Below are positions 13,460 through 22,746 of a stretch of DNA of 22,935 nt, piece after piece. Position numbers and translations under genes: made by a program. The stretch comes from a virus: positions 1 through 22,935 of the IMG/VR virus record IMGVR_UViG_3300046007_006061; one strand, 5' to 3'. The notes below the pieces were generated by a model. The model searched no databases. It had not been told where the DNA came from and worked only from the letters and a program-made list of their open reading frames with translations. The first letter of the stretch is position 1. Each line of letters begins with the position of its first letter.

Positions 13460-13466
13460 CTAAATA
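13460..13466 (+). promoter_or_regulatory. Possible late-promoter variant (CTAAATA) upstream of RNR
   Basis: GCTAAATA differs from TATAAATA at the first two positions. It lies 37 bases before the RNR ATG, giving a leader of about 31 bases that contains AAGGAG at 13486-13491. This is weak evidence. An RNR would usually be expressed early or middle rather than late. Confidence 0.25.
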
Positions 13467-13502: not shown

Positions 13503-15422
13503 ATGAGTTTACCAACCCCATATCAGCAATTTATTCACCTTTCTCGTTACTCAAGATGGCTAGAAAAGGAGGGTAGGCGAGAGGCATGGGAAGAGACTGT
13601 GGAACGCTACTTCAAGTTCTTTGATGAACACCTTGCGAACAATAGGAAATACAACCTTGATCCTACACTCCGTCAGGAACTCAAGACTGCTGTCCTTAAC
13701 CTTGAGATCATGCCTTCCATGCGTTCTCTTATGACCGCAGGAGAAGCACTCAAGCGAGACAATACCGCTGGCTACAACTGTTCATATGTTGCCGTAAACC
13801 GTGTTCGCGCATTTGATGAGATTCTCTACATATTGATGTGTGGTACAGGCGTAGGCTTTTCCGTGGAGAGGCAGTATGTCGAGAAACTTCCTACAATCGC
13901 TGAAGCATTCACTGATTCGGATACCACGATTGTGGTGCAGGATTCGAAGGCTGGTTGGGCAAAGGCTTTCAGGGAACTCGTCTCTCTTCTTATTGGAGGT
14001 CAAGTACCCCAATGGGATCTGTCAAAGATTCGTCCTGCGGGAGCAAGACTTAAGACTTTTGGAGGTCGTGCGAGCGGACCAAAGCCATTGGAGGATCTGT
14101 TTAGATTCACCGTTGATACCTTTAAGCGAGCCGCAGGACGAAAACTTACTAGCATCGAATGCCATGATATCGTCTGTAAGATTGCGGAGATTGTCGTTGT
14201 CGGAGGAGTCCGACGCTCTGCTCTTATCTCCCTATCAAATCTCACAGATGAGCGAATGAGGGATGCAAAGACAGGTGCATGGTGGAATGATAATCCACAA
14301 CGCGCACTTGCAAACAACTCAGTTGCATACAAGGAGAAGCCAGAGATCGGCGTGTTCATGGACGAGTGGGTTTCCCTCTACAAGTCCAAGAGCGGAGAAC
14401 GTGGTATCTTCAATCGTGCAGCAGCACAGAAGACTGTGGCAAAGTTGGGTGATCGCCGCGATCCGAACTATGAGTTTGGAACGAATCCATGCAGCGAGAT
14501 CATTCTTCGTGATTGCGAATTCTGCAATCTCACTGAAGTTGTTGTTCGTCCCGAAGACACGCTTGAGTCATTGCGTCGCAAGGTCGAACTTGCATCTATT
14601 CTTGGAACATGGCAAGCATCACTCACTCATTTTCCATATCTTTCAACATCATGGCAGAAGAACTGCGAGGAAGAGGCACTCCTTGGTGTGTCGCTCACAG
14701 GCATTCTTGACAACAAGATGATGCGTGGCGAAGAAGGTTCCTTGGAAAACATCCTCACGACATTGCGGAATCAAGCACAAGAGACAAACAAGACATGGGC
14801 AGCAAACATTGGAATCAATCCTGCTGCTGCTATTACATGTGTCAAACCAAGTGGAACGGTGTCTCAGTTGACCGATTCGGCATCGGGAATTCATCCTCGT
14901 CACAGTGAGTACTACATTCGTACCGTTCGTGCGGATCGCAAGGATCCACTATGTCAGATGATGATCGACATGGGATTCCCCGCAGAGCCTTGCGTGATGA
15001 AGCCAGATCACACAATGGTCTTCTCGTTCCCGATGAAGGCAGAGGGTTCTATCACCCGTAATGATCTTACTGCAATTCAACATCTTCAGTTGTGGCTTGA
15101 GTATCAGCGTCACTGGTGCGAACACAAGCCATCGATCACCATCACCGTGCGTGAGCATGAGTGGATGGAAGTTGGAGCATTCGTGTATAGGCACTTCGAT
15201 GAGATCAGCGGCATTTCCTTCTTACCGCACTCTGACCACAACTATAGACAAGCCCCCTACCAAGACTGCACCAAGACTGCATATACTGCTTTGGCTGTAG
15301 AAATGCCTAAAAATGTAGATTGGTCACTGCTGAAGAATTATGAAAAGACCGACACTACCGCAAGTTCGCAGACATTTGCTTGCTCTGGTGACAAGTGTGA
15401 AATTGTTGATCTCACTACATAA
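13503..15422 (+). CDS. nrdJ: Adenosylcobalamin-dependent (class II, monomeric) ribonucleotide reductase
   Basis: 639 residues. It reduces ribonucleotides to deoxyribonucleotides for phage DNA synthesis, using an adenosylcobalamin-generated thiyl radical. Key residues are visible. NPCSEI at 328-333 gives the thiyl Cys330 and Glu332. Cys341 lies 11 residues after Cys330, exactly as C408/C419 in the Lactobacillus leichmannii enzyme. Cys93 (NCSYV) fits the partner cysteine of the active-site pair. Cys627-X4-Cys632 near the C-terminus matches the C731/C736 relay pair. KPSGT at 448-452 is the phosphate-binding segment. LKTFGGRASGP, ECHDIVCKIAE and VRRSAL are typical of the monomeric class II branch. 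It is shorter than the 739-residue reference, with 237 rather than 289 residues between the first two cysteines. AAGGAG lies at 13486-13491 and a strong terminator follows. Confidence 0.93.
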   Translation: MSLPTPYQQFIHLSRYSRWLEKEGRREAWEETVERYFKFFDEHLANNRKYNLDPTLRQELKTAVLNLEIMPSMRSLMTAGEALKRDNTAGYNCSYVAVNRVRAFDEILYILMCGTGVGFSVERQYVEKLPTIAEAFTDSDTTIVVQDSKAGWAKAFRELVSLLIGGQVPQWDLSKIRPAGARLKTFGGRASGPKPLEDLFRFTVDTFKRAAGRKLTSIECHDIVCKIAEIVVVGGVRRSALISLSNLTDERMRDAKTGAWWNDNPQRALANNSVAYKEKPEIGVFMDEWVSLYKSKSGERGIFNRAAAQKTVAKLGDRRDPNYEFGTNPCSEIILRDCEFCNLTEVVVRPEDTLESLRRKVELASILGTWQASLTHFPYLSTSWQKNCEEEALLGVSLTGILDNKMMRGEEGSLENILTTLRNQAQETNKTWAANIGINPAAAITCVKPSGTVSQLTDSASGIHPRHSEYYIRTVRADRKDPLCQMMIDMGFPAEPCVMKPDHTMVFSFPMKAEGSITRNDLTAIQHLQLWLEYQRHWCEHKPSITITVREHEWMEVGAFVYRHFDEISGISFLPHSDHNYRQAPYQDCTKTAYTALAVEMPKNVDWSLLKNYEKTDTTASSQTFACSGDKCEIVDLTT

Positions 15423-15456
15423 CAACAGCCCCGCTTGAGATCGCATCTCTTGCCCG

Positions 15457-15486
15457 ACAACCCCCGAAAGGGGGGTTGTTTCTTTT
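15457..15486 (+). terminator. Rho-independent terminator after the RNR gene
   Basis: Stem ACAACCCCC / GGGGGTTGT (15457-15465 with 15471-15479), loop GAAAG, followed by TTTCTTTT. A smaller hairpin, GAGAT-CGC-ATCTC, lies just before it (15437-15449). Confidence 0.9.
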
Positions 15487-15530: not shown

Positions 15531-15565
15531 AAACCCCCCGCTCTTCACACGGGGGGTTTTGCTTT
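15531..15565. terminator. GC-rich hairpin terminator between convergent genes
   Basis: Perfect 10-bp stem AAACCCCCCG / CGGGGGGTTT (15531-15540 with 15550-15559) and a 9-base loop. Read on the plus strand it is followed by TTTTGCTTT. On the minus strand it directly follows the stop of the spike gene, but the trailing sequence there is only TTTGC. It probably acts in both directions, more strongly on plus. Confidence 0.75.
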
Positions 15566-18500
15566 AAGGATTTCGTGTTCTATATTTGATATGGAGTATA
15601 GGCAGATGTGATACATTTTCTATTCTTATGTTTTTACCAACAGCCTGTTCTTCAGCCACTATTGCTCGACTTAATTCAAGGTATTGATATTCAGTACCGC
15701 CATCTGTCTTGGTATTTGAAGCAATGTCCCCATCAATTCCGTCTGCAATAGAGAGAACCTGATAGATTCCATTATTTGATGCAGAACCGCTCACTCTGAT
15801 GTATGAACCAACTGCTATTCCTATGCTTGTTGCTGCACCAAACAAACGTGTTCCTTGAATTGGCACTTTGTATGCAAGGAGATTCTTGTTGCCGGTGTTT
15901 ATTGGATTGATGAATCTTAAATGCATCTTTTGTGGGTCGGATTGGGAATCAGGAATAATATAACGGGGTGTCGATGGATCCAAATTAGTTAGATAATTTA
16001 TATCGTTGGATGCGACTACTCCATTGTGATCATATCTTGGTTTTGTGGTATTGAATATAGAATTTGTTCCGCTAGGAGCCATTCCCTGAAGAACAATCTT
16101 GTTTCCATTTTCTATAAGTCCAACAAACTTTCTGATCTTATTTGTACAGGTTATAATTTGTGGGTTTGTTCCGGCAGTATTTGTTTTACTTGCGCTTGTA
16201 AACTCGCCATAGGAATTAATATTGCAAGTTATTCCTGTGGTTAGAGCCTGCAATTTTCCAATTTTAGCCGCCGTTGTTGGTATTCCCGTTACAAGATCAA
16301 CATAAGATAATCCTGTAGCCCCACTTGATAAAGATAATCCATCCATCTCATTGCGCGTAAGATCAATGTAGGTGTGGTGTGGAGATTTTCGGAATGATAT
16401 CTGATTACTAGTTAAAGAATTTGTTACTCCTGCTTCTTTACTGTGGAATGAGATATAGGAAAATAGTTTATAAAAATCCCCAAAGTGAACACCTTCAACA
16501 TTTGGGTTTGGTGAATTTCCCTCATCTCCCAATTGTTCATTTGTTATTTCGGATTCTGCAACATAGTTGTATTCCCCAAACTCTGTGCTTGGTATTGTTT
16601 TACCATGAAGAATTACCGCAAATGTTTTTCCTCCGGATACTCTAACATCGGACTGAAACTTAATTGCAAGATTTTTAACATCCATGGAATTTATAGCACT
16701 GATAGTTGGATCTAGAGTCACATCAATAGTCCCACCGGTAACATATACACCACCCTGATTTGGTACTTCTGTACTGTTTCCAGATGCTTCGTTACTCCTA
16801 CTTGGACCAATATCTGGATTGTCTGGTGGTGGGTCTGTAATTTCTTTTATACGTTCAAGATAATTTGGTATTTGAACTATTGAGTTTGCAGAATAAAAAG
16901 AATCTGCTCCATGAGTCACTCCATAAAACGTATCTTTACTCGCCCATGAGATGTCTTTTTGTATGTCTGTTGTGGTAAGGCTAATCGTAATTGGATGATT
17001 AACAAATTGTGTTTCAGCAGTTTCTGTTGGTGTGGTTGTATCTGCTCTTTGATCATAAATCAAGAATGATCCAGATGCATCAGAACTTAAAGGATCTGTC
17101 TCCCAATAATCTGGACTACTCAAGTCGATCCATTTGTTTCTGCCATGTGTATTGTTGTACGAAGTGTTAAAGGCTGTATCTTTAAAGAATAGTTTGTCTA
17201 GGTCAGGATTGGGGGATCCTGTTCGACATCTTTTTATTAGAGATGGTCGCAATGGAGTGTGAAATTGTCCTCGACTTATTTCAAGTGCTGCTCCAGATAA
17301 TGTACTGCCAACGGCTCTATCATATCTGAATGGAGCAGTGGGGCTTTCATCGTCTGTTTTTCCGATAATGGAATCTTGGAAAATGAAATTTCCATGAAAA
17401 CAACGGATAATCGCAATCAATGCTCCGTTCGATTTATTGTTTTGCATGAAAGTGCATTTATCCAAAACAATATCGCGTATCATGGATGAAGAAGTTCCTG
17501 CTGGAGGAATCTTCATTGCTGATGGGAAATTGTACTCTGCCCATCGCTGCTCATATTGATCTGAAATATTTAAATTCGGATTCAATGTGAATCCAACAAA
17601 CGAACCACCCGCCTCAAAAAATGGTCCTTGGGAATAATAATCTTTGGAACTCATCTCGTAGTAAATACGATTTCTTGATTGTCCACCAGAGCCAGGAAAT
17701 ATTTGAAAGACATCCGTATGTGCGTGTCCTGGGACGTTAGAGCCACTTAATCCAGCACCAACCACATCATGAGTTAATGTTGTGCCAGCATTGAATGGGT
17801 TTCCGATGATATCCGATGCAGTGCATTTTACTCCGCAGCCAACGTCTCTCCAGCAGTCTTCGAATATTTTTTCTGCATGGCATTTGTTCATGAAATAAAC
17901 TTGTCCACCTTTGGTGAATGCTTGCATATCGGAAAAAGTTGAACCGATCAGACACATAGAGGTGCAGTCTGCCGTTTCTATCACTGTACTATTCCCTAAG
18001 CCTTCAACAAAGTTTCTATTGACTGTTGTGGCATCAGTTCTCCAATTTGGATTGTAAGTCAACCCACTGTATTGGTAGAACCATTTTGCGGCTCTTTGTC
18101 TAAAGTCTACTATAGTCTCTCCTACATTTTGTACAGTAACATTTATTTCAACATCCGCTGGTATTTGATTTCCATAGGGATCACGATCATTATCACCAAA
18201 AATTCTTACATAACTAGGTCTTGTTTTTTCCCAATCAAAGAGTGGTTGGTGATTGAAGTTACAGTTACAGTTCTCAACTAGAACATGAACTCCACCATAC
18301 TGAGAAGTTGCAACAGTGTATGTTATTCCTTTTATTGGATTCGTAAATATTTTTCTATTGGGATTCGTAAACGAAAATATTCTGCCTTCTTTAGTGGCAG
18401 TATTGATGGATCGGCTTGGTTGATCTATTTTTAGATTGAGAAATCTATACTTGTTTAAGGCAAGTCCTGCTTCATTTCCTCGTTTTCTCAAAGTCACATT

Positions 18501-19259
18501 TGCATTTTGATAAGGAGTAAAAGTAACATATCTTTTTAGGTTGTTTACTCTTAATGCAGATGAAAACGATGTATATCCAATAGTTCCGAGGTCATAGTCA
18601 ACTCTTTGACCATTATTACCCATAAGATAAATTATCAAACCATCCACTTCTTTTGCAGTCCCACCAGCAGCGATCAACACACCTTCTATAGTTTTCTTTG
18701 GTGTTGTTGGCGTGATTCCATCGTTGTCATCGTTGCCAGTACTAGCATTTACATAGAATTCTTCTCTTGGTAAAGACCCATTAAAATTTGTAGCGAAAAA
18801 ATATGAGTGGTGTCCGTGTTTTAGATTTCTTAAGCCAGGAGCGAGAGGGCTAAAATTGGGAATTTGATCACCCATTGCTTCGCCTTGAAGAACTTGGGGA
18901 TATCCACTATTTGGATAGACTTTCGCTCGTAGTTCATTGTATTCATTGTCGGGAATACCACTGCTCAATGTTATGTTGTAACATGTGGCACCGATTGTTG
19001 CGTTATATGATTGATCTGTTACAGTGACAACGGGACCATTATTGAGTTGAAACTCAACGCGATCTATTCCCGATATGTGATATGCCAACAACGGAATCTC
19101 TGTTGGGGAATCATAATCCTTGAAAAGTGGTGCTGCCCACCGTGCAATCGTATTGTTGTGGTATGCAGGATTATTCGGATCACCAACTTGTTCTAAAGTA
19201 TTATCTGGATTTACTGGATAATCTGAAAATATATCTGTGCCAGATGTTATTGTTGACAT
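15564..19259 (-). CDS. Large beta-helix tail spike / receptor-binding protein
   Basis: 1231 residues from the ATG at 19259 (MSTITSGTDIF), chosen because AAGGA lies seven bases upstream (19267-19271). The frame reaches back to an ATG at 19295, but that start overlaps the upstream gene and lacks a site. The N-terminal ~160 residues are a particle-attachment-like beta region (EIPLLAYHISGIDRVEFQLNNG). Residues from about 175 (EFYVNASTGNDDNDGITPTTPKKTIEGVL) show the classic entry motif of pectate-lyase-like right-handed beta-helices, YV...G.D.NDG..P..TI. Helix-like coils continue through about residue 700, with unusual Cys/His content (ENCNCNFNH, CHAEKIFEDCWRDVGCGVKC, GHAHTDVFQ). The C-terminal 400 residues are further beta domains. 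Tail spikes of this fold often bind or cleave polysaccharide; catalytic residues cannot be assigned here. Confidence 0.8.
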   Translation of the reverse strand: MSTITSGTDIFSDYPVNPDNTLEQVGDPNNPAYHNNTIARWAAPLFKDYDSPTEIPLLAYHISGIDRVEFQLNNGPVVTVTDQSYNATIGATCYNITLSSGIPDNEYNELRAKVYPNSGYPQVLQGEAMGDQIPNFSPLAPGLRNLKHGHHSYFFATNFNGSLPREEFYVNASTGNDDNDGITPTTPKKTIEGVLIAAGGTAKEVDGLIIYLMGNNGQRVDYDLGTIGYTSFSSALRVNNLKRYVTFTPYQNANVTLRKRGNEAGLALNKYRFLNLKIDQPSRSINTATKEGRIFSFTNPNRKIFTNPIKGITYTVATSQYGGVHVLVENCNCNFNHQPLFDWEKTRPSYVRIFGDNDRDPYGNQIPADVEINVTVQNVGETIVDFRQRAAKWFYQYSGLTYNPNWRTDATTVNRNFVEGLGNSTVIETADCTSMCLIGSTFSDMQAFTKGGQVYFMNKCHAEKIFEDCWRDVGCGVKCTASDIIGNPFNAGTTLTHDVVGAGLSGSNVPGHAHTDVFQIFPGSGGQSRNRIYYEMSSKDYYSQGPFFEAGGSFVGFTLNPNLNISDQYEQRWAEYNFPSAMKIPPAGTSSSMIRDIVLDKCTFMQNNKSNGALIAIIRCFHGNFIFQDSIIGKTDDESPTAPFRYDRAVGSTLSGAALEISRGQFHTPLRPSLIKRCRTGSPNPDLDKLFFKDTAFNTSYNNTHGRNKWIDLSSPDYWETDPLSSDASGSFLIYDQRADTTTPTETAETQFVNHPITISLTTTDIQKDISWASKDTFYGVTHGADSFYSANSIVQIPNYLERIKEITDPPPDNPDIGPSRSNEASGNSTEVPNQGGVYVTGGTIDVTLDPTISAINSMDVKNLAIKFQSDVRVSGGKTFAVILHGKTIPSTEFGEYNYVAESEITNEQLGDEGNSPNPNVEGVHFGDFYKLFSYISFHSKEAGVTNSLTSNQISFRKSPHHTYIDLTRNEMDGLSLSSGATGLSYVDLVTGIPTTAAKIGKLQALTTGITCNINSYGEFTSASKTNTAGTNPQIITCTNKIRKFVGLIENGNKIVLQGMAPSGTNSIFNTTKPRYDHNGVVASNDINYLTNLDPSTPRYIIPDSQSDPQKMHLRFINPINTGNKNLLAYKVPIQGTRLFGAATSIGIAVGSYIRVSGSASNNGIYQVLSIADGIDGDIASNTKTDGGTEYQYLELSRAIVAEEQAVGKNIRIENVSHLPILHIKYRTRNP

Positions 19260-19269
19260 TTGTAGTTCC

Positions 19270-19680
19270 TTAGACCCAATTTCTATTGTTTGCAACGGTG
19301 AGGTTAAGTTTTGCTTCTATTATTTCGGCATTTGCTGGAAGTGATGTCAGATTGAAAGCCATTGCTGTTCGTGTTGGACTTCTTACTTGTATGAGTGTCC
19401 CTAACACCCCACTTTCTGATGGAGCATCTTCTCCATCGTTCCATGGGTTCAATAGACCGATTGGAACTTGTGTTGCTTGTTCGAAATCACCACCATTGGG
19501 TAATACAGGAGTGCCATTCCATCTATCGTCTAATGCTCCATAAATTACAGGATTGTGCCAATAGAAAGTATCAAACTCTGGTATTACTATGATTTCACTC
19601 TCGGTGGTTTGTGGTGGACTACCACCATCAAGCCTCACTCTGTTCTTGATGTTTCTTTTGTTTATAAAATCGCTACGCAT
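19270..19680 (-). CDS. Small spike-operon protein with partial DNRLRE-like segment
   Basis: 136 residues, MRSDFINKRNIKNRV onwards. The ATG is one base from the stop of the upstream gene, with AGGAA seven bases before it. The basic N-terminus is followed by an acidic/Pro-rich middle (EIIVIPEFDTFYWHNPVIYG). The last 45 residues (GTLIQVRSPTRTAMAFNLTSLPANAEIIEAKLNLTVAN) match the start of DNRLRE-type beta-sandwich domains (R...AFDLS.LP..A.I..A.L.L.V). Such domains usually run on for another 80 or more residues, but this frame stops at NNRNWV. The stop lies inside the Shine-Dalgarno of the spike gene, so translation is coupled. It may be a spike cofactor or a truncated carbohydrate-binding module. 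Confidence 0.7.
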   Translation of the reverse strand: MRSDFINKRNIKNRVRLDGGSPPQTTESEIIVIPEFDTFYWHNPVIYGALDDRWNGTPVLPNGGDFEQATQVPIGLLNPWNDGEDAPSESGVLGTLIQVRSPTRTAMAFNLTSLPANAEIIEAKLNLTVANNRNWV

Positions 19681-19681
19681 A

Positions 19682-21277
19682 TTAGGTTCCTATGTAATAG
19701 AGAGTGGCACCATTGACCGTTGACCACGCCTGAATTCTATTCAAGTTATCCGTTTCAATGAATATTTGATCTCCGTTGTACAACGGGAATCCGACTTGTG
19801 ATAACACTGCCGATGAGAATCCAATGAATATGGTTCCTGTATTGTTTAGGTCACTTCGGAAGTGTACACCGCTTTGTAATGCTACAGACGAGAATGTATT
19901 TACACCACCCGAAGGAGACACAGCAACTTTGTTAGCAGTTCCGCCTGTTGGTTGTGCTATTCTTTGAATGTCAACCTTCACCATTTTATTACTTGAAGAA
20001 TCCGTTGAAACAAGGTTGTCGGATCCTGTTGTGGTGAATATGGTATTCAACGAGTTCATATTTGATGAGATCGTTGAAATTGTATTGTTTATGTTTGCTG
20101 AATTTACATCAGACGTATACAAATAGTTGTATTCTGCACCAACCTCATTAAACTTCAGTTTATTCAATTGGGTGAGTGCATCACCGGTTAATGCCATGTA
20201 ATCACCCGATGCACCAAGAACTCTTATAACAGCGGTAACTGAATCTGTGGCAGCATTCAAGTCTCTAATATCAAGGTTAGCACCAGTGACGGTGATTGGA
20301 ACCATATCACTGCCTGTATAGCCGTGAACGGGCATCACTTGAGATCTAGAGGTTGGCAAACTGGTTCCAAATGAAAGACCATCTATCTTGAGGAATTCTA
20401 AATTATCAACGATAGCGGTAACACCAACAGAACCAGTAACAAGATTCACATACAACGCACCAGTGCTATCAACCTTGAATGGAATTTTGGTGTCGTAATT
20501 ATTGATGTTGGTAAGACCGTGTGTGAAGACCGCAACAGGATATGCACCTGAAAGACCAACGACACGGACGGTATCTTCTGCATTGAAAGATTGGTCAGAT
20601 CTCACTAATGTTGCTAATGTTAAAGGAGTTGCTCCACTTGTTGCTCTTAATAATCTTGTTTCAAATCCAGAAGAGGTACTATCTATCGGCGTACTACTAG
20701 ATACAACATTCACATTGTTCAACACAGACACACTATCAGAACCATATGTCAGTGATCGAATGTCGAGGTCTGTTGCGGTAACTCCAACTGCCCATCCGCC
20801 AGAGTAGCCAACGATTCTCACAACATCTTGACCCGCAGCACCAGCCGTCGCTGGATCTCCTGCTGTCAATGCACGAATTCCAAAGTTTGTTGCAGTGACT
20901 CCAACTGCCCAACCACCAGAGTATCCAACCACACGAACAACATCTTGACTAATTGCACCAGCAGTAGTTGGATCTCCTGCGGTTAATGTTCTGATGTCAA
21001 GATCAGTTGCAGTTACTCCAACGGGTTGATTTACGCTTACAGTTCCCGTTACAGTTACGGTTCCACCAACACTCGACACGGCAACCGTTGGAGTGTTTAC
21101 GATAGCAACTGGCAAACCGTTTGATGATGTAACTCTTGTACCACCTTCTCCAGTAGCACCATAAGCAATCTTCATTACTTGAAAATGATTTCCCTCTGAT
21201 GCGGAGTAGTCTGTCGCAATTACCGCTTCTCCAGAAAATCCTGATACTGCCACATTGTTGTCCGTGTCGTAAGCCAT
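19682..21277 (-). CDS. Repeat-rich phage fibre protein, first gene of the minus-strand late operon
   Basis: 531 residues. The start at 21277 has AAGGA (complement of 21284-21288) and a perfect late promoter about 34 bases upstream. The N-terminus reads MAYDTDNNVAVSGFSGEAV. Residues 72-86 are Val/Thr-rich (GTVTVTGTVSVNQPV). Two 39-residue tandem repeats follow (residues 87-164), each with GVTAT(D/N), IR.LTAGDP, AG, QDVVR.VGYSGGWAV, plus a partial third copy. Similar RVLG.SG and LDIRDL elements recur to residue 350. A short helical stretch (INNTISTISSNMNSLNTIF) precedes a C-terminal beta domain (HFRSDLNNTGTIFIGFSSAVLS, YNGDQIFIETDNLNRI). It is probably an elongated trimeric fibre or connector holding the spike; that role is inferred. 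Confidence 0.8.
   Translation of the reverse strand: MAYDTDNNVAVSGFSGEAVIATDYSASEGNHFQVMKIAYGATGEGGTRVTSSNGLPVAIVNTPTVAVSSVGGTVTVTGTVSVNQPVGVTATDLDIRTLTAGDPTTAGAISQDVVRVVGYSGGWAVGVTATNFGIRALTAGDPATAGAAGQDVVRIVGYSGGWAVGVTATDLDIRSLTYGSDSVSVLNNVNVVSSSTPIDSTSSGFETRLLRATSGATPLTLATLVRSDQSFNAEDTVRVVGLSGAYPVAVFTHGLTNINNYDTKIPFKVDSTGALYVNLVTGSVGVTAIVDNLEFLKIDGLSFGTSLPTSRSQVMPVHGYTGSDMVPITVTGANLDIRDLNAATDSVTAVIRVLGASGDYMALTGDALTQLNKLKFNEVGAEYNYLYTSDVNSANINNTISTISSNMNSLNTIFTTTGSDNLVSTDSSSNKMVKVDIQRIAQPTGGTANKVAVSPSGGVNTFSSVALQSGVHFRSDLNNTGTIFIGFSSAVLSQVGFPLYNGDQIFIETDNLNRIQAWSTVNGATLYYIGT
20747..21019 (-). repeat. 117-base tandem coding repeat (2.3 copies)
   Basis: Units of 39 codons encode residues 87-125 and 126-164 of the 531-residue fibre protein, with a partial third unit (GVTATDLDIRSLT). 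The encoded repeats differ at about 10 of 39 residues, while QDVVR and VGYSGGWAVGVTAT are invariant apart from one V/I. Confidence 0.85.
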
Positions 21278-21310
21278 TTTGATTCCTTTTTATGATTCTG
21301 TGATCTTGAT

Positions 21311-21318
21311 TATTTATA
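21311..21318 (-). promoter_or_regulatory. T4-type late promoter TATAAATA for the spike operon
   Basis: The complement of TATTTATA is a perfect TATAAATA on the minus strand. It gives a predicted start near 21305 and a leader of about 28 bases containing AAGGA before the ATG at 21277. It is the best late-promoter match in the window and the only one for three minus-strand genes spanning 5.7 kb. Confidence 0.8.
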
Positions 21319-21322
21319 CTCC

Positions 21323-21349
21323 TTGACACCACAATACATAGAGTATAAT
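21323..21349 (+). promoter_or_regulatory. Sigma70-type promoter for the gp33-like gene
   Basis: TTGACA (21323-21328) and TATAAT (21344-21349) are both perfect consensus boxes, with a short 15-base spacer. The predicted start falls at 21356-21357, on or next to the A of the ATG, so the mRNA would be leaderless or nearly so. Confidence 0.7.
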
Positions 21350-21356
21350 CCTCATC

Positions 21357-21572
21357 ATGATTGACCCCACACAGATATCCAATCTCATAGAACGAATGGT
21401 TTCCAACAGAAAGATCTCCTACATGGAGGCTGTTTTGGAAATTTGCGAAGAACATTCAGTTGATGCATCGCTTGTGGCAAAGCACTTGTCTCGTCCAATC
21501 ATTGAAAACATTGAGAACGAAGCACGACAAGTGAATCTATTGCCGCGTAAGAAATCATTGCCTTTCGCTTGA
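21357..21572 (+). CDS. 33: gp33-like late-promoter transcription accessory protein
   Basis: 71 residues. In T4, gp33 bridges RNA polymerase and the sliding clamp to activate late transcription together with sigma gp55. The central stretch here (KISYMEAVLEICEEHSVDAS, then LVAKHLSRPIIENIENEAR and NLLP) follows the pattern I recall for T4 gp33 (MSYLEA, EENSI, AKFI, IIEKIQSEA, NLL). It also resembles the short gp33 proteins of marine T4-like phages, which likewise sit next to gene 32. It lacks the long N-terminal extension of the 112-residue T4 protein. The C-terminus, KKSLPFA, is hydrophobic like the clamp-binding tail but is not the T4 sequence. There is no clear Shine-Dalgarno. The stop codon overlaps the -35 box of the gp32 promoter. 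Confidence 0.72.
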   Translation: MIDPTQISNLIERMVSNRKISYMEAVLEICEEHSVDASLVAKHLSRPIIENIENEARQVNLLPRKKSLPFA

Positions 21573-21596
21573 CACACACCGTACACGCTGTATACT
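21569..21596 (+). promoter_or_regulatory. Sigma70-type promoter for gene 32
   Basis: TTGACA (21569-21574), 16-base spacer, TATACT (21591-21596). Predicted start near 21603, leader about 41 bases. The octamer ATACTCAG occurs twice, at 21592-21599 (overlapping the -10 box) and 21611-21618, and may be an operator or RNA-binding element. Confidence 0.75.
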
Positions 21597-21643: not shown

Positions 21644-22585
21644 ATGTCAGATTTCGCAAGTTTTAAGAAAAGTTCGAAGAACAACCTTGGCAAGATTGCC
21701 AAGGAACTAGAGAAAGTCACTAAAGGCGGGGGAGAGAATTCCTACAAGGATGATCGTCTCTGGCAGCCTGAAGTTGACAAGACGGGTAACGGGTATGCAG
21801 TCATCCGTTTCCTCCCCGCTCCTCCAAGCGAGGATCTTCCTTGGGTTCGTGTCTTCAGCCACGGATTCCAAGCAAAGGGTGGTTGGTACATTGAGAACTG
21901 CCCCACCACAATCGGACAGAAGTGTCCCGTTTGTGAAGCAAACAACGAGTTGTGGAACAGCGGAAACGATGATGACAAGAACATTGCGCGTGATCGCAAG
22001 CGCAAGTTGTCCTACATCAGCAATGTCGTTGTGATTGAAGATCCTGTCAATCCTGCCAACAACGGTAAGATCTTCCTCTACCGCTATGGCAAGAAGATCT
22101 TTGATAAGATCAACGACAAGATGAATCCTCAGTACAAGGATGAGGATGCTGTGAATCCATTCGACTTCTGGCAGGGAGCGAACTTCAAGATCAAGATTCG
22201 TAATGTCGATGGATACCGCAACTACGACAAGTCAGAGTTCTCTGCATCGTCACCTCTCCTCGACGGGGATGACAAGGCACTTGAGGCTCTGTGGCGCAAG
22301 GAATACTCATTGCTTGACTTCGTGAAGCCTGATCAATTCAAGGCATACGGAGAACTCAAGACAAAGTTCCAATCCGTCATCAATGGTTCTCAGTCTCAGA
22401 AGGCAGAGGACATGGACATTTCTGAGGAAGAAGAGGATGCTTCGGAGAAGAAGTTCACCCCGAAGTTCCCAACTGCTGAAGCGAAGGCACCTGGTCGGGA
22501 AACAAAGCCAAAGACTAGCAAGGTGAGTGAAGATGATGACGAGGATGATGCCTTGTCATACTTCAAGAAGTTGGCAAATGAGTGA
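21644..22585 (+). CDS. 32: gp32-type single-stranded DNA-binding protein
   Basis: 313 residues (T4 gp32 has 301). It coats ssDNA cooperatively in phage replication, recombination and repair. I chose the ATG at 21644 because AAGGAG (21631-21636) lies seven bases upstream; the frame extends to a TTG at 21569 inside the promoter, which is rejected. The basic N-terminal segment (residues 8-25, KKSSKNNLGKIAKELEKV) matches the region used for cooperativity. The zinc site is His73-X12-Cys86-X7-Cys94-X2-Cys97, the phage gp32 pattern apart from X7 in place of X9 in T4. The core carries aromatic and basic residues (RYGKKIFDKIND, DFWQGANFKIKIRNVDGYRNYDKS). The C-terminus is strongly acidic (SEEEEDASE, EDDDEDDALSYF), as expected for the protein-interaction tail. 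Confidence 0.97.
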   Translation: MSDFASFKKSSKNNLGKIAKELEKVTKGGGENSYKDDRLWQPEVDKTGNGYAVIRFLPAPPSEDLPWVRVFSHGFQAKGGWYIENCPTTIGQKCPVCEANNELWNSGNDDDKNIARDRKRKLSYISNVVVIEDPVNPANNGKIFLYRYGKKIFDKINDKMNPQYKDEDAVNPFDFWQGANFKIKIRNVDGYRNYDKSEFSASSPLLDGDDKALEALWRKEYSLLDFVKPDQFKAYGELKTKFQSVINGSQSQKAEDMDISEEEEDASEKKFTPKFPTAEAKAPGRETKPKTSKVSEDDDEDDALSYFKKLANE

Positions 22586-22703: not shown

Positions 22704-22713
22704 TTCGCTACCG

Positions 22714-22746
22714 AACACCCCTCAGAAATGAGGGGTGTTTTATTTT
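22714..22746 (+). terminator. Rho-independent terminator after gene 32
   Basis: Perfect 10-bp stem AACACCCCTC / GAGGGGTGTT (22714-22723 with 22730-22739), loop AGAAAT, tail TTTATTTT. Confidence 0.93.

Follow-up and report, generated by a model that had tools for sequence, protein, structure and literature searches.

The 79-nt gap between gp33, the gene for the T4-type late-transcription coactivator, and a divergent structural operon is probably a compact divergent promoter region, in which a sigma70 early promoter with a leaderless gp33 start opposes a gp55-type late promoter and the two are likely to be mutually exclusive. The 22,935 nt analysed here (the window) form a 22.9-kb fragment of a virus record, and the right end of the window carries gp33 and gp32 on the plus strand and a three-gene operon on the minus strand. 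Whole records were used for two near relatives, G001 (156.6 kb) and G002 (92.8 kb), and for G006 (76 kb), which belongs to a second clade (clade 2, L034-L053) with gp33 proteins ~45% identical to that of the window. Within the window's own clade we collected 29 gp33 loci and aligned 12 distinct ones in register; these 12 rows were hand-chosen to drop near-copies and share ancestry, so that the counts given below are of non-independent events. The features of the locus are as follows.

15564-19295, minus strand: third gene of the divergent operon, 1243 aa, with beta-helix-like sequence (an impression)
19270-19680, minus strand: second gene of the divergent operon (136 aa), which is an ORF of its own in G001 too
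19682-21277, minus strand: leading gene of the divergent operon (531 aa), for a probable virion or tail protein whose N-terminus is homologous to that of the divergent gene in clade 2
21278-21304, minus strand: 5' leader predicted for the divergent operon, carrying an AAGGA ribosome-binding site, from the sequence and the T4 late promoter register
21311-21318, minus strand: late promoter core TATAAATA (T4 positions -13 to -6), predicted start at ~21305
21323-21328, plus strand: -35 box (TTGACA) of the early promoter of gp33; relatives mostly retain CTTGA
21333-21340, plus strand: late-like octamer AATACATA between the -35 and -10 boxes, its TANATA constant at all positions but N across 12 lineages
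21344-21349, plus strand: -10 box TATAAT, ending 7 nt before the gp33 ATG; T-A-n-A-n-T unchanged across 12 lineages
21356-21357, plus strand: predicted transcription start at the gp33 ATG or 1 nt before it, from the register of the -10 box and the 6-7 nt distance peak
21357-21572, plus strand: gp33, late-transcription coactivator, 71 aa (PF16805, phrog_254, PDB profile match)
21569-21596, plus strand: separate sigma70-like promoter of gp32, TTGACA-16-TATACT, with an ordinary leader and ribosome-binding site; the same in G001 at 47478
21644-22585, plus strand: gp32 (Pfam and PHROG searches)

Genes of the locus

The first-pass annotation had called the gene at 21357-21572 gp33-like, and on sequence grounds its identity as a genuine gp33 is secure: PF16805 matches it at E 6e-19 and 68 bits (cut-off 25) in a profile search, phrog_254 is its PHROG match, and the solved T4 gp33 structures 3TBI and 7D7D match residues 10-62 at E about 1e-7 by profile. 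The C-terminus, where a clamp-binding motif would be expected, reads SLPF(A/S) and is nearly invariant. The nearest phages in the annotated collection, which are Kyanoviridae-type, have gp33 ~40% and gp32 56% identical to those of the window, and the source phage is T4-like and Kyanoviridae-related. The cyanophage marker psbA was not found in nine records.

Of the 5.7-kb spike operon proposed earlier, the operon itself stands, with three minus-strand ORFs running from 21277 to 15564; the word spike goes back to the beta-helix-like impression, and the Pfam and PHROG searches of the operon gave no family match. We considered whether a frameshift or sequence error separates the 136-aa from the 1243-aa ORF and set this aside, the small ORF standing separate in G001 too. 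Strong terminator-like hairpins with T runs are found in the window at 22713-22740, after gp32, and at 15456-15480, after the reductase gene.

The probable late promoter of the divergent operon

At 21311-21318 the plus-strand letters TATTTATA give TATAAATA on the minus strand, the sole exact copy in the window, 33 nt upstream of the first ATG in the divergent operon. Both the perfect minus-strand octamer and its distance of 4 bases from the -35 box (21319-21322 lying between), as originally described, are borne out by the sequence. With 0.79 copies expected by chance in the window, the exact octamer is insignificant when taken alone, and exact TATAAATA was rejected as a genome-wide late consensus, since its 4 copies in 156 kb do not exceed the count for the reversed control.

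The evidence for a late promoter comes instead from the shorter core TAAATA. In unbiased 7-mer counts, ATAAATA, CTAAATA and TAAATAT rank at or near the top upstream of genes in G001 and G002. At promoter positions, that is before same-strand start codons, TAAATA is found at 4 of 13 sites in the window (0.12 expected, p 4e-6), 9 of 56 in G001 (p 2e-9) and 8 of 31 in G002 (p 1e-9), and the antisense TATTTA has no enrichment at these positions in any of the three. Collagen-like fibre genes and other genes of the clade are found behind such cores. TAAATA is thus the late core of the window's clade. The window being a 22.9-kb fragment, the late factors were sought in the near relative G001, which encodes gp55 (phrog_234, E 1.8e-57) and gp45 (PF09116). 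The enrichment and these two genes make it very likely that the minus-strand octamer marks a true late promoter, and the enriched core together with its conservation supports the earlier assignment of a late promoter to the divergent operon.

Two further late cores were noted. In the window, the class II ribonucleotide reductase gene at 13503, of a kind commonly regarded as early, has TAAATA (13461-13466) 36 nt ahead of it. In G001, a 719-aa cytidyltransferase-like ORF has the late core CCTAAATA (31557) 6 nt ahead of its ATG, possibly giving a leaderless late mRNA.

The predicted early promoter of gp33

TTGACA-N15-TATAAT is the sole perfect hexamer pair with a spacer of 15-19 in the window, where 0.03 are expected, and this pair, together with the conservation of its elements, supports the proposal that an early sigma70 promoter drives gp33. 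The optimal sigma70 spacer is ~17, so the description of the promoter as consensus holds for both hexamers (TTGACA at 21323, TATAAT at 21344) and fails for the spacer of 15. Relatives have spacers of 15-16, against a sigma70 criterion of 16-18 bp, with the T, A, A and T of the -10 box invariant. The short 15-bp spacer counts against this reading. Beyond TTG the -35 box drifts among relatives, from TTGACA to TTGAAG, TTGATC, TTGCTT and TTGTAC, and where it has decayed (TTGCTT, TTGTAC, TTGATC) gp33 may have only a weak early promoter, or one that does not use sigma70.

As the -10 box ends 6-7 nt before the ATG, the gp33 mRNA is predicted to be leaderless. Position -1 is a pyrimidine in 12 of 12 lineages. 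When sigma70-like sites were collected from three genomes, 13 of the 71 sites within 40 nt lay 6-7 nt from open start codons, compared with 3.6 if they were spread evenly over the 40 distances, and a stricter threshold left 7 sites at 6-7 nt versus 0-3 for permuted motifs. The genes behind this peak include gp41 (both clades), gp43 (clade 2), uvsY, the Pyr_excise protein gene and gp33, with these promoters in the relatives:

G001 70544, 94841 and 108543 and G006 40500 and 58433, all on the minus strand: sigma70 promoters, predicted leaderless, of gp41, the Pyr_excise protein gene, uvsY and (clade 2) gp43, -10 box 6-7 nt before the ATG

Since the leaderless-type genes include gp41, uvsY and gp43, the spacing would place gp33 among the pre-replicative genes. 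Among the papers examined, nothing usable was found on transcription start site maps or leaderless mRNAs of T4-like cyanophages. The predicted leaderless gp33, gp41, uvsY and gp43 mRNAs suggest a translation strategy for pre-replicative genes in an uncultured phage group, which would bear on start-codon annotation and on host prediction. Leaderless-type promoters, again 7 nt before the ATG, also precede the genes of two small proteins, each with a hydrophobic segment at its C-terminal end: one of 47 aa in G001 (4570, minus strand) and one of 42 aa in G002 (60251, plus strand).

Conservation of the overlapping promoters

All 12 aligned relatives keep the late core, CTTGA (mostly), the TANANT -10 box and the spacing between them. 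The octamer is almost invariant (CATACATA in L022, CATAAATA in L025), with 7 of its 8 columns at a pairwise identity of at least 0.83 across the 12 lineages; in the gp33 coding sequence of the same rows, none of 12 fourfold columns and only 5 of 71 third codon positions are invariant. From octamer start to CTTG the distance is 11 nt in all but L025 (10 nt), and from the -10 box to the ATG it is 7 nt (6 nt in L025). The spacing is fixed on the CTTG side of the octamer and varies on its opposite side.

Clade 2 has the same gene order, with both genes divergent, and the N-termini of its divergent gene and that of the window are homologous (39% over 83 aa, E 4e-7). Each of its 9 distinct promoters carries a minus-strand TATATA 16-17 nt from TATA[AC]T, followed by 6-7 nt to the ATG, so that this late-core variant occupies the -35 position. 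In G006, TATATA is enriched at promoter positions (5 of 24 sites, p 1.5e-6) and, as a palindrome, reads the same on both strands. With TATATA at the overlapping position, the overlap was retained while the late core changed. The conserved overlap that the first-pass annotation proposed to look for in related phages is therefore found in clades 1 and 2, neither of which has the promoters far apart while keeping both genes. Among the other relatives examined, the cultured T4-like phages S-SM1, DSL-LC03 and Melnitz and phage C48C1 have gp33 codirectional among other genes, within an early operon in the cultured phages; the back-to-back arrangement is thus a feature of the window's branch and not a requirement of T4-type late control.

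Probable polymerase exclusion in a short divergent gap

In the order of events that we infer, host sigma70 RNA polymerase would start early at or next to the gp33 ATG, giving a leaderless gp33 mRNA as for other pre-replicative genes, and after the onset of replication the gp55-gp33-clamp polymerase would open the minus-strand TATAAATA and transcribe the divergent structural operon. The two initiation complexes would share one 50-bp stretch and should be mutually exclusive, with heavy use of the late promoter lowering early gp33 initiation as a by-product. The predicted starts, at ~21305 by the T4 register and at 21356/57, are back to back and ~51 bp apart. The upstream border of a polymerase complex is usually near -40. 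In T4, the clamp-activated late complex protects 13 bp more upstream DNA than the basal complex (PMC2988020). By analogy, the late complex would cover the -35 box, -10 box and start of gp33, which makes mutual exclusion of the two polymerases likely from the geometry; its presumed size and weight would depend on how long the late promoter is occupied. The earlier statement that late polymerase physically blocks the gp33 promoter thus agrees with the overlap and the geometry, and we hold the blocking itself to be likely only.

A plainer account is that two independent promoters have come to lie in a short divergent gap with no selection for regulatory coupling, and we give it a real if somewhat less than even chance. 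The non-ORF share of these genomes is ~3.5-5.5%, the clade-2 gap is ~68-70 nt in all (79 nt in the window), and a leaderless start forces the gp33 promoter to lie within 40 nt of the ATG; the short gap and the leaderless gp33 may by themselves account for the overlap. The fixed octamer-to-CTTG spacing is more rigid than such compaction needs, although shared ancestry could explain it. Compaction can hold together with the mutual exclusion that we favour, as can the dual gp33 promoter discussed below.

A late-like core within the gp33 promoter

Between the -35 and -10 boxes of gp33, all 12 lineages have TANATA, always 13 nt from CTTG, a conservation for which the early promoter alone does not account. 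The core reads CTAAATA, the canonical late core of the clade, in 5 of the 12 lineages (L011, L012, L020, L025 and L027) and TAGATA in two more (L016, L021), while the window shares TACATA with four other lineages; L022 bears CATACATA on both strands. Counted by eye, and suggestive only, the CTAAATA lineages mostly have the weaker sigma70 match (7-9 of 12 positions, L025 excepted) and the TACATA lineages the stronger one (10-12 of 12, L022 excepted). In a gp32 tree, considered for polarising the change in this core, most forks had no support and the tree did not resolve.

These data raise the possibility that the spacer core is a plus-strand gp55 promoter, with gp33 transcribed early by sigma70 and again late in positive feedback. 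A plus-strand late core could keep gp33 transcribed late as well, the opposite of a shut-off, and its canonical form in 5 of 12 lineages points to such continued transcription; L022, with its core on both strands, and the RB49 and S-PM2 precedent (PMC2984593) speak for the same reading. On the other side, as ordinary late cores TACATA, the form in the window, is weakly enriched at promoter positions genome-wide and TAGATA not at all, a start from the spacer core would give a ~12-nt leader with no ribosome-binding site, and other leaderless or early promoters of the clade (gp41, uvsY) are without the spacer TANATA. We therefore regard late transcription from this core as doubtful, and equally so the related view of the whole region as a divergent late promoter pair with an early promoter laid over one member. 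A second candidate dual early/late promoter, TTGACA-16-TACACT with TAAATA in its spacer, precedes a 101-aa phrog_527 gene at G001 82460 (minus strand).

A selected switch of three cores appears unlikely: here the early sigma70 promoter and two back-to-back gp55 cores would make gp33 self-sustaining yet in competition with the operon it activates, the balance in each lineage being set by the strength of the early promoter and of the plus-strand late core. The least probable reading, and one that we would not adopt, is a toggle with negative feedback, in which accumulated gp33 drives late polymerase to the minus-strand octamer, blocks its own promoter and so limits itself. The retention of the overlap in two clades favours it. 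In addition, gp33 occupies the sigma region 4 site on the beta flap and, when the clamp is missing, represses basal transcription (PMC2988020, PMC7892883), so that, by analogy, repression of a -35-dependent promoter by gp33 is plausible, and such clamp-independent repression can be a separate route to negative feedback. However, the late promoter would have to be highly occupied for occlusion to work, many relatives have a plus-strand late core directed at gp33, the 79-nt gap makes overlap expected anyway, and the cultured T4-like phages examined lack the arrangement. The claim that gp33 shuts off its own promoter is accordingly unsupported: the plus-strand core points the other way, and gap length and leaderless start may explain the overlap.

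Comparison with known systems

The arrangement is a variant of known T4-type late control. As in T4 late promoters (gp55-gp33-gp45), the core is of the TATAAATA type, there is no -35 box, and gp55, gp33 and gp45 are present in the clade; the core differs in being (A/C)TAAATA, or TATATA in clade 2, and one late promoter here adjoins the coactivator gene's own promoter. Overlapping early and late promoters have been proposed for RB49 and S-PM2 middle genes (PMC2984593), which likewise have sigma70 elements together with a late core in a single promoter region, whereas here it is the opposite strand that bears the best-conserved late core, the core on the same strand being canonical in only 5 of 12 lineages and reading TACATA in the window. 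The phi29 A2c/A2b-A3 region also holds early and late promoters together, the early ones going off as the late one comes on (PMC3100819). That switch uses the DNA-binding proteins p4 and p6, while for the window gap we propose only an overlap of polymerases, read from the sequence, gp33 and gp55 being the regulators considered.

The literature examined holds no description of autoregulation of a T4-type late coactivator, and the conserved 50-bp overlap of gp33's promoter with a promoter that gp33 serves makes such autoregulation directly testable. The gp33 genes of S-SM1, DSL-LC03, Melnitz and C48C1 belong to the same family and lie near gp32 or gp59, and in three of these four phages gp33 overlaps the preceding gene; in the window, by contrast, gp33 heads its own unit, diverges from a structural operon and is predicted to be leaderless.
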